A stretch of 64,000 bases of DNA from Gracilimonas sp. (GTDB lineage: Bacteria; Bacteroidota; Rhodothermia; Balneolales; Balneolaceae). This document shows, piece by piece, positions 56,282 to 61,027 of this stretch (its first letter is position 1; each line of letters opens with the position of its first letter). The notes under the pieces were generated by a model that was given only the letters and a program-made list of their open reading frames with translations, was not told where the DNA came from and searched no databases. Location: the NCBI RefSeq assembly GCF_040218225.1, contig NZ_JAVJQO010000002.1, positions 186,001 through 250,000 of the forward strand, in the 5' to 3' direction. A program made the translations under genes and the position numbers.

Positions 56282-57238
56282 ATGAAAACCGTACTCACCC
56301 CTCCTACCCTATCTGACATCCGGGAAGCACAACAAAGGATTTCAGAATATGCACACCGTACACCTGTGCTAAACAGCAAACAGGTTAATCAAAAAATGGG
56401 TGCCCAAATTTTCTTTAAATGTGAAAACTTTCAAAAGGTCGGCGCTTTCAAATTCCGTGGAGCAAGCAATGCTATTTTTTCTTTGACCGATGAAGAAGCC
56501 GCCAAGGGTGTAGCTACTCATTCTTCCGGAAATCATGCACAGGCGCTGGCTTTGGCAGCTAAGCTAAGGGGCATTCCGGCTTATGTTGTGATGCCTGAAA
56601 ATGCCCCAAAAGTAAAAGTGAAAGCCGTCCAAAACTATGGAGCTGAAATTACTTTTTGTGAGTCAACCTTACAAGCCCGCGAATCAACACTTGAGAAAGT
56701 AGTAGAGAAAACCGGCGCAACTTTCATTCATCCTTATAACGATGCCCGAATTATCGCCGGACAGGGAACAGCAGCCCTGGAACTGCTGGAAGATCATCCC
56801 GATCTGGATATGATAATGGCACCTGTAGGCGGCGGTGGGTTATTGAGCGGAACTGCATTGGCAGCTAAATCCATCAAGCCAGATATAAAAATTATTGGAG
56901 CAGAACCTGCTAATGCTGATGATGCCTACCGTTCTTTCCAAAAAGGTGAACTCATACCTGTTAGCAATCCTGATACCATTGCCGACGGATTACGTACTTC
57001 TTTAGGTGAACTGCCCTTCTCTTTAATCCGGGAATATGTTGATGATATTGTAACCGTTCCTGAAGAATCTATTATTGAAGCCATGCGTTACGTGTGGGAG
57101 CGCCTGAATATGATTATAGAAGCTTCCTGCGCCGTTCCCGTAGCAGCTGTTTTTGACGAAAAAGTAGAGGTAAAAGGAAAAAAAGTTGCCATTATCATTA
57201 CCGGTGGAAATGTGGATTTGGATAACCTTCCCTGGTAA
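56282..57238 (+). CDS. Threonine/serine dehydratase, fold-type II PLP enzyme
   Basis: 318 residues without a C-terminal ACT regulatory domain, so the catabolic/racemase-like type. PLP lysine in CENFQKVGAFKFRGASNAI, substrate loop THSSGNHAQALALAAK, the phosphate-binding Gly-rich loop MAPVGGGGLLSGTALA and the end VAIIITGGNVDL. Candidates are catabolic threonine dehydratase, serine racemase or 3-hydroxyaspartate dehydratase; residues to decide are not obvious. It starts 4 bases after the AsmA-like gene, so the two are likely co-transcribed though unrelated. Confidence 0.88.
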   Translation: MKTVLTPPTLSDIREAQQRISEYAHRTPVLNSKQVNQKMGAQIFFKCENFQKVGAFKFRGASNAIFSLTDEEAAKGVATHSSGNHAQALALAAKLRGIPAYVVMPENAPKVKVKAVQNYGAEITFCESTLQARESTLEKVVEKTGATFIHPYNDARIIAGQGTAALELLEDHPDLDMIMAPVGGGGLLSGTALAAKSIKPDIKIIGAEPANADDAYRSFQKGELIPVSNPDTIADGLRTSLGELPFSLIREYVDDIVTVPEESIIEAMRYVWERLNMIIEASCAVPVAAVFDEKVEVKGKKVAIIITGGNVDLDNLPW

Positions 57239-57359: not shown

Positions 57360-58232
57360 ATGGGAAAAAAAGAAGATAATAAAACTCGCTCTTTCACTAA
57401 CGATCTGGACCGTCACTCTGATTTTGATCATGATCCCGATTTTGATTTAGATGAATATATCCGCAACCAAAGTCAGGAATCAGGAAACATTGTTATTGAA
57501 GAAGAAACCAAAGATCCTGATCGCTATCTTTTCAAGAATGCCATCCTCATTTTCATCGTTTTTGCTGCTGCTTTTTTGTGGTTTAATAATTGGAATCCAT
57601 CAGAAGCTTTTACCTTTGTTTTTGGAAATAATGAACAGGCAACTGAGGTAACTGCCGGAGCCCCAGATATTGATCGACTAGAAATTGAGATTCCGGAACC
57701 TCCTGAAATTCCAACTGTACCTGGTGTTGAAGCACCACCTGCACCAGCCAGTAATCTGGATATGAGCATCACTGAGTATCTATCTGTTTTACAAGACAAA
57801 GGCTACCTTGGAGATGAGATTTCAGGCTTTTCGGCCCGGCAGCTTTATGATGCAAATGTGCCCGTCTCTTACCTTGATGAACTTCAGAATGCAGGCTTTT
57901 TAGAAGACCTATCTTTCGTTTACATCACCAACTATTATCAAAACCAAATTCCATTATCCTATCTTGAAAGACTGCAGGATGCCGGTGTATATGAAGAATT
58001 ATCGTTTGTGGATGTAACGGCCTATTACAATGACGATATTCCTGTAGAGTATCTCGTTACACTAAATGAAGCTGGTTATCTAGAGGAATTATCGTTTGTG
58101 TATGTAACCAATTTCTATAATGCCGGTGTTACCGTAGAGTTTTTAGACCAGCTTAAAGAACAGGGTTTATATGACGACCTCAGCTTCCTGGATATTGTGG
58201 ATTTGTATCAAAGGGAAAATGGGGACGGTTAA
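57360..58232 (+). CDS. Repeat membrane protein A (30-residue repeats)
   Basis: 290 residues. An acidic cytoplasmic N-terminus (about 1-56) with DFDLDEYIRNQSQE is followed by a single membrane helix (about 57-76, FKNAILIFIVFAAAFLWFNN), a Pro/Glu-rich linker (PEPPEIPTVPGVEAPPAPA) and then about four repeats of exactly 30 residues, each of the form LSFVxVTxYYNxxIPVEYLx followed by xLxxAGYLEE. Two helices per repeat are predicted, so the outside part is a helical solenoid. The linker-helix-repeat plan is shared with the next gene. No catalytic residues are seen and I do not recognise a function. Confidence 0.7.
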   Translation: MGKKEDNKTRSFTNDLDRHSDFDHDPDFDLDEYIRNQSQESGNIVIEEETKDPDRYLFKNAILIFIVFAAAFLWFNNWNPSEAFTFVFGNNEQATEVTAGAPDIDRLEIEIPEPPEIPTVPGVEAPPAPASNLDMSITEYLSVLQDKGYLGDEISGFSARQLYDANVPVSYLDELQNAGFLEDLSFVYITNYYQNQIPLSYLERLQDAGVYEELSFVDVTAYYNDDIPVEYLVTLNEAGYLEELSFVYVTNFYNAGVTVEFLDQLKEQGLYDDLSFLDIVDLYQRENGDG

Positions 58233-58249
58233 ACTAATTGAACATCAAC

Positions 58250-59218
58250 ATGAAAACAAAATACAGAGACAGCAATAGCGATCCGGATTTTGATCTGGAT
58301 GAATACATCAGGGAGAAAAGTAAGGAGAACGATGAGATGTCCTACCAGCCTTTGCCTGAAGAAGATGACGGCTCGATGTTTAAAAATGCCGTCCTGATTT
58401 TCATGGTATTTGCTGCTTCTTTTCTTTGGTATCACGACTGGAGTCCTGCACAGGCATGGTCTTCTGTCTTTGGGAGTGATCAACAAAATGTGAATGTCAA
58501 TATTCCCGACATTAACATTAATATTCCTGACATTGATATTCCGGAGATGGCTCCTTTACCAGATTTCAGCTTTGAAGGAGGCTTTGCTGATTATTTAGTG
58601 GAAATCAATGATGCAGGTTTAGACAACCTTTTTTCAAATTCCGGATACCAGGCACTTTATCAGACCGGAGTTCCCATCGAATATTTAGAGCAGCTAAATA
58701 ATGCCGGATATCTGGAGGACGATTTTTCATATTCTGCAGTCATCGGACTTTATAACAGTGGAGTTCCTGTAGAATATATTGACGGACTGAATGAAATGAA
58801 CTTACTGGATGAATTCTCCTATTCTGCTATCATTGGGTTATATAATTCAGGGGTTTCCTTAGATTATGTTTCTTCTTTAAACGAAGCCGGTTACCTGGAT
58901 GTATTTTCCTACTCTGCCGTGATTGGATTGTATAATGGTGACGTAAGCATTGACTATCTGAATACTTTATTCGAAAATGGCTATCAGGATGTATTTTCAT
59001 ATTCAGGTATCATTGGCTTGTACAATGGCGGGGTAACTGTGGATTACCTGAATCAGCTCTCACAGAACGACCTGCTTAACGAGTTTTCTTATTCGGCAAT
59101 AATTGGGATGTATAATGGCGGAGTAACGGTAGATTACATAAATGGTTTAGCTGAACGGAACCTGCTTGGGAACCTTAGCTACTCAGATATCATCCGGATG
59201 TACAATACGGATCAATAA
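58250..59218 (+). CDS. Repeat membrane protein B (30-residue repeats)
   Basis: 322 residues from the ATG at 58250; a TTG 12 bases earlier is a weaker alternative. It has the same plan as its neighbour: DPDFDLDEYIREKSKEN near the start, a membrane helix (about 44-62, FKNAVLIFMVFAASFLWYHD), an Asn/Ile/Pro/Asp linker built of NIPDI units, and then at least six repeats of 30 residues (FSYSAIIGLYNSGVSLDYVS plus about ten more). Units start at 58724, 58814, 58904, 58994 and 59084, and a partial one at 59174, an exact 90-base period. It starts 17 bases after the first gene, in one operon. No homologous enzyme is recognised. Confidence 0.72.
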   Translation: MKTKYRDSNSDPDFDLDEYIREKSKENDEMSYQPLPEEDDGSMFKNAVLIFMVFAASFLWYHDWSPAQAWSSVFGSDQQNVNVNIPDININIPDIDIPEMAPLPDFSFEGGFADYLVEINDAGLDNLFSNSGYQALYQTGVPIEYLEQLNNAGYLEDDFSYSAVIGLYNSGVPVEYIDGLNEMNLLDEFSYSAIIGLYNSGVSLDYVSSLNEAGYLDVFSYSAVIGLYNGDVSIDYLNTLFENGYQDVFSYSGIIGLYNGGVTVDYLNQLSQNDLLNEFSYSAIIGMYNGGVTVDYINGLAERNLLGNLSYSDIIRMYNTDQ

Positions 59219-59239: not shown

Positions 59240-61027
59240 CTATAGAACTTTAGGCTCGTCTAAATCACGAAACTGTAATTCGTAAAGGTGACTATAGAGT
59301 CCATTCCGTCCAATTAATTCGATATGGGTTCCCTGCTCCACAATCTTTCCTTCGTCCAACACAAGTATTCTATCTGCATGCTGAACCGTTGATAAACGAT
59401 GAGCAATTACAAAAGTAGTACGATTTGTCATAAGCCGAACCAGGGCTTCCTGAACCTGGGCCTCTGATTCCGAATCCAGAGAAGATGTTGCCTCATCCAA
59501 TAACAGAATAGCGGGATTTTTGAGAATTGCTCTTGCTATGGCCAACCTTTGGCGCTGTCCACCACTCAGCTTAACTCCCTTCTCTCCGATTAAAGAATCA
59601 TATCCATTTTCCGTTTGCATGATGAAGTCGTGGGCATTTGCATCTTTAGCTGCCTGTATAACTTCCTCATCAGTAGCTTCCAGTTTCCCGTATGTAATGT
59701 TTTCCCGGATAGTAGTACCAAACAGATGAACTTCCTGAGGTACAATGGAAATATGTTCGCGAAGAGATTTAAACTTCAAATCCTGAATATTATTTCCATC
59801 TACAGAAATAGAACCTTTTTGAGGATCATAGAATCTTGGGATTAAATTTAACAGCGTGGTTTTCCCCGCCCCGCTAGGCCCTACCAGTGCTATCGTTTTT
59901 CCGGCTTCGGCTTTGAATGATATACCTTTCAATACATCTTTTTCTCCTTCGTAACTGAACCACAAATTCTCAACTTCCACTTCTCCATGCACTTCAGTTA
60001 TGGCTCTCGCATCAGGATTATTCTCTATTTCAGGGGTTTCTTCTAGAAGTTCAAAAATACGTTCCGAAGCTCCAGCTGCAGTATTTACAGCTGTATACAA
60101 TCTGGATGTCTGGCTGATTGATCGTGAAATGTTTAATGCATAAATAATGAACGCAACTAGATCTCCGGCAGTGAGCCGATCTGCAAGTACTTCTTTCCCG
60201 CCGTACCAAAATATGATAACCAAAGTGCTCATAAACATGATTCCCACACCCGACCAGAACAGCTGGGTTAGCACCATTTTTCGGCGGGCCGTCTTAAATA
60301 ATTTTTCTACTGCTGTTTGATAACGGCCCACTTCATAATCTTCCCGCACAAATGCTTTCACCAGGCGAACAGCTCCAAGGGCATCTTCTGCCACGGCGGT
60401 AGAGTCAGCAAGTTCGTCCTGAATATCTTTGGAAAGATGACGGATCTTCTGACCAAAATAGCGGGTTGCCAAAGTGACAAAAGGTACCGTAACAAAAATC
60501 ACCATGCTAAGCCGCCAGTTCAGAACTACCATCAATGAGACAGAACCAATCAGCGAAAAAGAAATAGTTAGTAACTGAGGAAGTGAATCCGTCAAAGCTG
60601 TTCTGATTGAGCCGACATCATTCGTAAGTCGTGAGGTAATTTCACCCAGTCTGCGCTCAGCAAAGAACTTAAACCCCAACCGGTGCAGATGCTCATATAC
60701 TTTTTTACGCAGATCAGTAACCACGCGTTCTCCCACCCACTCCAGGTGATAATTTCCGAAAAAGGAGAATGCTGCCTGAAGCACAAAAAGCCCGAACAGC
60801 CCCATTGCCAGCCAGTTTAATAACTCGTTATTACCCGATTCAAAAACCGCATCCAGTAATTCCCTCAACCCCAAAGGAACTGTAAGCCATACAGCTGATG
60901 CTAATATGGTGACTATTGTTGCTGCATAAAAGCGCACACGATACGGCTTGCTAAGAGCAAATATCTGCTTCAGCGTGAGCCAAAGCGACTTAATTGATTT
61001 ATTCTCTTTTTCGGGATTCTTACTCAT
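59240..61027 (-). CDS. MsbA-like ABC exporter (half-transporter)
   Basis: 595 residues, membrane domain first (six helices, about 20-330), then the nucleotide-binding domain: Walker A LVGPSGAGKTTLLN, signature KLSGGQRQRLAIA, Walker B ILLLDEATSSLDSE and switch His VIAHRLST. Such half-transporters work as homodimers and flip lipids, drugs or peptides outward; the closest general type is MsbA/BmrA. Substrate cannot be deduced. It converges on the repeat membrane proteins with only a 21-base gap and no hairpin, and is divergent from the NfeD operon. Confidence 0.9.
   Translation of the reverse strand: MSKNPEKENKSIKSLWLTLKQIFALSKPYRVRFYAATIVTILASAVWLTVPLGLRELLDAVFESGNNELLNWLAMGLFGLFVLQAAFSFFGNYHLEWVGERVVTDLRKKVYEHLHRLGFKFFAERRLGEITSRLTNDVGSIRTALTDSLPQLLTISFSLIGSVSLMVVLNWRLSMVIFVTVPFVTLATRYFGQKIRHLSKDIQDELADSTAVAEDALGAVRLVKAFVREDYEVGRYQTAVEKLFKTARRKMVLTQLFWSGVGIMFMSTLVIIFWYGGKEVLADRLTAGDLVAFIIYALNISRSISQTSRLYTAVNTAAGASERIFELLEETPEIENNPDARAITEVHGEVEVENLWFSYEGEKDVLKGISFKAEAGKTIALVGPSGAGKTTLLNLIPRFYDPQKGSISVDGNNIQDLKFKSLREHISIVPQEVHLFGTTIRENITYGKLEATDEEVIQAAKDANAHDFIMQTENGYDSLIGEKGVKLSGGQRQRLAIARAILKNPAILLLDEATSSLDSESEAQVQEALVRLMTNRTTFVIAHRLSTVQHADRILVLDEGKIVEQGTHIELIGRNGLYSHLYELQFRDLDEPKVL

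Follow-up and report, generated by a model that had tools for sequence, protein, structure and literature searches.

The described proteins closest to A and B, the two gene products analysed here, are the M56/BlaR1-like peptidases, which carry, like A and B, a homologous repeat of about 29-30 residues (GVTPEYI..L..AGY) beyond their membrane domain; this status was confirmed by Pfam for two of the three proteins compared (L095 and L097), and the third (L096) is alike by eye. A gene of 119-120 aa, BlaI-like by eye, is found just upstream at the M56 loci. TALE/BurrH and mTERF alpha-solenoids are, like A and B, built of short helices, with units some 30-35 residues long. TolA/TonB-type arms consist of an N-in single transmembrane (TM) helix and a periplasmic helical domain, a plan that A and B resemble.

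A and B are encoded in a window of 64,000 nucleotides from Gracilimonas sp. (contig NZ_JAVJQO010000002.1, positions 186,001 to 250,000), the window being the whole stretch of DNA that was analysed. The features of the two genes are as follows.

57360..58232, + strand: gene A (group 1 paralogue), 290 aa, with a probable cytoplasmic tail, TM helix, linker and predicted solenoid of about 5 units
57432..57464, + strand: acidic, probably cytoplasmic motif DPDFDLDEYIR of A, read from the sequence; most of the family keeps the motif
57531..57587, + strand: single TM helix of A, residues ~58-76; its hydropathy is 2.2, and 57 of 65 relatives show a K/R bias on the N side
57594..57761, + strand: linker of A, low-complexity, acidic and proline-rich by sequence, with low pLDDT in the alignment-free model
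57819..58229, + strand: 30-residue repeats of A, starting at residues 154, 184, 214 and 244, with a partial unit at 274
58250..59218, + strand: gene B, 322 aa, starting with ATG; its position and repeat type make it a group 4 paralogue
58280..58312, + strand: acidic, probably cytoplasmic motif DPDFDLDEYIR of B, from the sequence and the orthologues; a short helix (16-24) in the model
58379..58435, + strand: single TM helix of B, residues ~44-62
58568..59215, + strand: predicted alpha-solenoid of B, residues 107-322; AlphaFold2 block-mean pLDDT 94-98 over 111-320
Within gene B: repeat starts at residues 128, 159, 189, 219, 249 and 279, then a C-terminal cap

Both same-strand reading frames, and the gap of 17 bases between the stop codon of A and the ATG of B, are as an earlier note on this DNA had given them. 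The ATG at 58250 is favoured because orthologues of B begin at an identical MKTKYR, which makes the TTG at 58238, the start given in the list of reading frames, unlikely. From N- to C-terminus, each protein is composed of an acidic tail of 40-56 residues with DPDFDLDEYIR, a TM helix, a low-complexity linker, and 30-residue repeats; the common motif, the near-identical helix FKNA(I/V)LIF(I/M)VFAA and the linker were all found again in both proteins, and this architecture is well supported. Upstream of A lies a gene for a PALP-family enzyme (56282-57238), and downstream of B, on the opposite strand, one for an ABC exporter (59240-61027), beyond which follow NfeD, an SPFH protein and a second SPFH-like reading frame (the last by eye). 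No outer-membrane protein (OMP) gene and no signalling gene was found as an operon partner of A and B, and the conservation of these neighbours may be a matter of synteny only.

The repeats had been described as exact 30-residue units forming a solenoid in the second gene. This holds for their length, spacing being exactly 30 in 256 of 261 spacings measured across 65 relatives, but not for their sequence: identity among the five central repeats of B is 53-66% at the protein level and 53-65% at the DNA level, and no DNA array is reported by Tandem Repeats Finder. Nor is the solenoid confined to B: A has one too, of four full repeats and a partial one. Against a profile built from the five central repeats of B (whose own scores of 74-77 bits are high by construction), the first repeat of B, independent of the profile, reaches 35.8 bits (shuffled maximum 18.4), and the repeats of A reach up to 31.2 bits (shuffled maximum 16.7). 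The AlphaFold2 model of B, computed with a family alignment, averages 84.7 in pLDDT, reaches means of 94-98 in the ten-residue blocks from residue 111 to 320, and places two helices in each 30-residue repeat. The model of A, folded without an alignment, is poor (pLDDT 54.7), and its last, C-terminal repeats still appear as paired helices. A predicted solenoid of two-helix, 30-residue units is strongly supported by sequence for both proteins.

Charge and composition indicate on which side of the membrane each part should lie. The N-terminal flank of the TM helix has a mean of 2.94 K+R vs 0.52 for the C-terminal flank and is the richer of the two in 57 of 65 members, cysteine is absent from the 14,400 residues located beyond the helix across the relatives, and the solenoid is acidic (D+E 15.4%, K+R 3.5%). 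By sequence rules (the K+R bias and the cysteine-free ectodomain), the tail is probably cytoplasmic and the solenoid periplasmic, and A and B are best read as bitopic inner-membrane proteins. This supports the earlier view of proteins that span the membrane once and probably carry their repeats outside the cytoplasm.

Profile comparison ties these repeats to a known class of sensors. A two-repeat profile, from which the CheY-linked members were left out, gives 48-89 bits on the three M56/BlaR1-like proteins and at most 8.2 bits on reversed controls; the full-length profile separates less cleanly, reversed controls reaching 26 bits and the weakest forward matches about 28-37. Going by these scores, M56/BlaR1-like sensors from other Bacteroidota carry uncatalogued repeats to which those of A and B are homologous, and this bears out the earlier note, which placed LxxxGVxxxYLxxLxxAGY repeats in some sensor proteins. 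A and B differ from the peptidases in having no M56 domain (no Pfam match), another N-terminal tail and a single TM helix, and no BlaI-like gene is found beside them, their neighbours being the PALP enzyme and the ABC exporter. In one other Bacteroidota genome (L096:255-5915), an M56-like gene is followed by two genes consisting largely of the same repeat.

The likeness to other solenoids is of a more general kind. The best VIA-align rows are TALE-like and mTERF solenoids with Z of at most 7.6, the usual range for helical repeats; identity is about 10%, rmsd mostly 8-12 Å and Foldseek E 0.07 or worse. BurrH, with a Foldseek E of 0.18 and a Z of 7.6 at an rmsd of 8.7 Å, stays within that generic range. 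Foldseek finds nothing among solved structures at E < 0.001, and the PDB contains no convincing sequence relative of A or B. TALE-like DNA binding would not be expected, since both proteins are membrane-anchored and very acidic with the solenoid beyond the TM helix, and no clear structural match suggests it. Several family matches were also set aside: the Pfam LED repeat (PF20854), with 14.2 bits for A vs a curated cut-off of 59 and no match in five genomes, the source included; Beta-APP and phage sheath, below cut-off or repeat noise; and FtsK_gamma, just under cut-off in one relative. An anti-phage role was rejected, PADLOC having no match for A or B. In a different Balneolaceae genome, a family member has a Zorya type II set (ZorA2, ZorB2, ZorE2 by PADLOC models; L105:565-3511) in its vicinity, which is probably unrelated.

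The combination of an acidic tail with an FDLD motif, a single TM helix and a 30-residue solenoid, found in both A and B, defines a family that was confined to Balneolaceae in these searches. At an E-value of no more than 1e-5, B has matches in 28 of the 92 Balneolaceae genomes, counting the source genome, and an alignment search of 198 genomes from across the phylum gives matches in 26. Three of these 26 genomes lie outside Balneolaceae and hold other repeat proteins, at least two of them M56/BlaR1-like by Pfam. A pattern scan with alignment A4 (84,980 species, one genome each) retrieved 15 loci, nearly all labelled Balneola, Gracilimonas, Balneolaceae or Balneolales; a genome contig scan with the B sequence alone found no relative. 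Searched alone in 19 genomes, the tail-TM module occurs only in front of 30-residue repeats and never before another C-terminal domain; further weak tail matches, among those read and named by eye (shikimate kinases, RelA-like, secretin-like, FtsH-like and Band-7-like proteins), are unrelated. Most groups retain the DPDFDLDxYI-type motif in their tails; it is degenerate in the CheY-linked group and in part of the GT-linked group. Scans of A, B, the M56-like proteins and the other repeat proteins gave no Pfam or NCBIfam model that covers the repeat, and literature searches returned no paper on the tail-TM-solenoid family, so that the supposition of a protein plan without a described family stands; conservation of the pair extends past this strain, and no search matched a characterised repeat family of known function.

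The search for conserved pairing and neighbours revealed that the pair belongs to a larger array. In other genera, up to four such genes stand in a row, and in a maximum-likelihood tree (quick method) the array genes sort by position into groups 1, 2, 3 and 4, the tree groups having been matched to gene order by reading the outputs without a script. Apart from losses, all 14 multi-gene clusters read, from several genera, follow the order 1-2-3-4, and the A-B pair is a reduced form of this ordered four-gene array, retaining members 1 and 4. Group 1, with A and its orthologues, has a tree support of 99. The Gracilimonas B genes occupy the last position and have the group 4 repeat type; position and repeat type thus assign B to group 4, and the tree neither shows nor rejects this placement (one clade, p 0.44). 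Recent tandem duplication does not account for the pair, as an AU test rejects a tree that keeps A and B together (p 2e-66), and orthologues of A occur at the position of A itself. A short third gene in L039 (207 aa), left out of the tree, was assigned from its position alone. Group 3 paralogues (L038:7429-8292 and L040:6752-7498) have most repeats replaced by a long leucine/glutamate-rich stretch (LEGLEGLEGLAEIEGL), and a B-like gene in a MAG contig (L047:6831-7603) is split into two reading frames by a frameshift or an assembly error. Group 4 is present in 19 of 19 array loci, and group 1 is missing in five Gracilimonas loci that carry B. B therefore does not need A, and the proposal of an A-B binding pair, as it had been put, finds no support in view of these five loci and of the arrays of up to four genes in other genera.

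Each paralogue has a repeat consensus of its own. Average inner-repeat identity is 0.38-0.59 among orthologues of one group vs 0.23-0.44 between groups, and the consensus is group-specific (LSFVxIteyY in group 1, FSYSAIIGLYN in group 4) and conserved across genera, in keeping with the earlier observation that the repeats of A and B have equal length and different consensus. The dN/dS of A is 0.07 vs L070 and 0.10 vs L041, both Gracilimonas orthologues; between L070 and L071, it is 0.21 for A and 0.08 for B. Synonymous sites are saturated between B and both L070 and L041, for which no ratio is given; wherever they are unsaturated, values of 0.07-0.21 indicate strong purifying selection.

Other paralogues of the family are found in settings of their own. 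The CheY-linked paralogue belongs to a same-strand run of CheY-like, repeat protein, OMP beta-barrel and NAD-binding oxidoreductase genes in several genera (L036, L061, L100-L102, L104), another group is found downstream of MotA/MotB-like genes of the same orientation in two genomes (L043, L072), and a third adjoins a glycosyltransferase (GT) gene in several genera, though not in the Gracilimonas loci read. Some relatives, from three genera, have a vWFA/CarboxypepD_reg gene upstream of the array and in the same orientation.

Because the tail is conserved, the faces have diverged and the gene order is fixed, the most economical reading is that A and B act as inner-membrane-anchored periplasmic scaffolds or tethers with a common cytoplasmic docking peptide. 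We give this reading about even weight, and "scaffold" is a generic term here, since solenoids serve many roles. The solenoid would bind a partner through its repeated, paralogue-specific face (this might be a protein of the envelope or a polymer of regular repeats), and the common peptide would dock on one shared cytoplasmic partner. A four-gene array could in this way connect a number of ectodomains, each with its own face, to a single partner in the cytoplasm. Of the array, the source strain has only members 1 (A) and 4 (B). Envelope links counted in favour come from relatives, namely the run of CheY, repeat protein and OMP genes around a distant paralogue and the MotA/MotB-linked paralogue. 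It is doubtful, at the same time, that the whole forms a Balneolaceae-specific, ordered multi-part envelope assembly, in which up to four collinear paralogues would share one docking peptide and each have its own periplasmic binding face.

The main rival is that A and B are envelope sensors, the repeat domain detecting stress or a ligand and signalling through the TM helix to the cytoplasmic peptide, which would recruit a regulator. The homology to the M56/BlaR1-like repeats, which may sense likewise, speaks for it, as does the paralogue group that comes directly after a CheY-like receiver gene of the same orientation; however, neither A nor B contains an enzymatic, kinase or peptidase domain, no regulator gene adjoins them, and the CheY link is missing for relatives in another genus (L098, L099), so that this role is considered rather unlikely. 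A surface- or matrix-facing function, with solenoids engaged in adhesion or cell-cell contact and diversified by array expansion, would suit an array of diverged paralogues and the vWFA genes mentioned above. Nevertheless, the membrane anchor sits behind a long acidic tail, no outer-membrane export signal was recognised, no vWFA gene was found next to the Gracilimonas clusters, and strong purifying selection with conserved faces is not what rapid diversification would leave, which makes such a function improbable. A further rival sees in A and B membrane-anchored periplasmic arms of the TolA kind, which would reach across the envelope and act together with a motor of the MotA/ExbB type. The TolA-like topology and the MotA/MotB-linked group speak for it, but that neighbourhood occurs in two genomes of a single genus, with another gene in between; A and B themselves have no MotA/MotB-like neighbours, no TolA or TonB family match, and no TolQ/R or ExbB/D genes beside them, and this is the least probable reading of all.

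Whichever role applies, A and B represent a conserved family, undescribed as far as the searches show, from a poorly studied group of bacteria. Its repeat links this Balneolaceae family to the uncatalogued repeat of M56/BlaR1-like sensors, and a ligand of the repeat, if found, could explain what those sensors detect. The fixed order of four paralogues, their specific faces and their one tail peptide together make a model that is directly testable.
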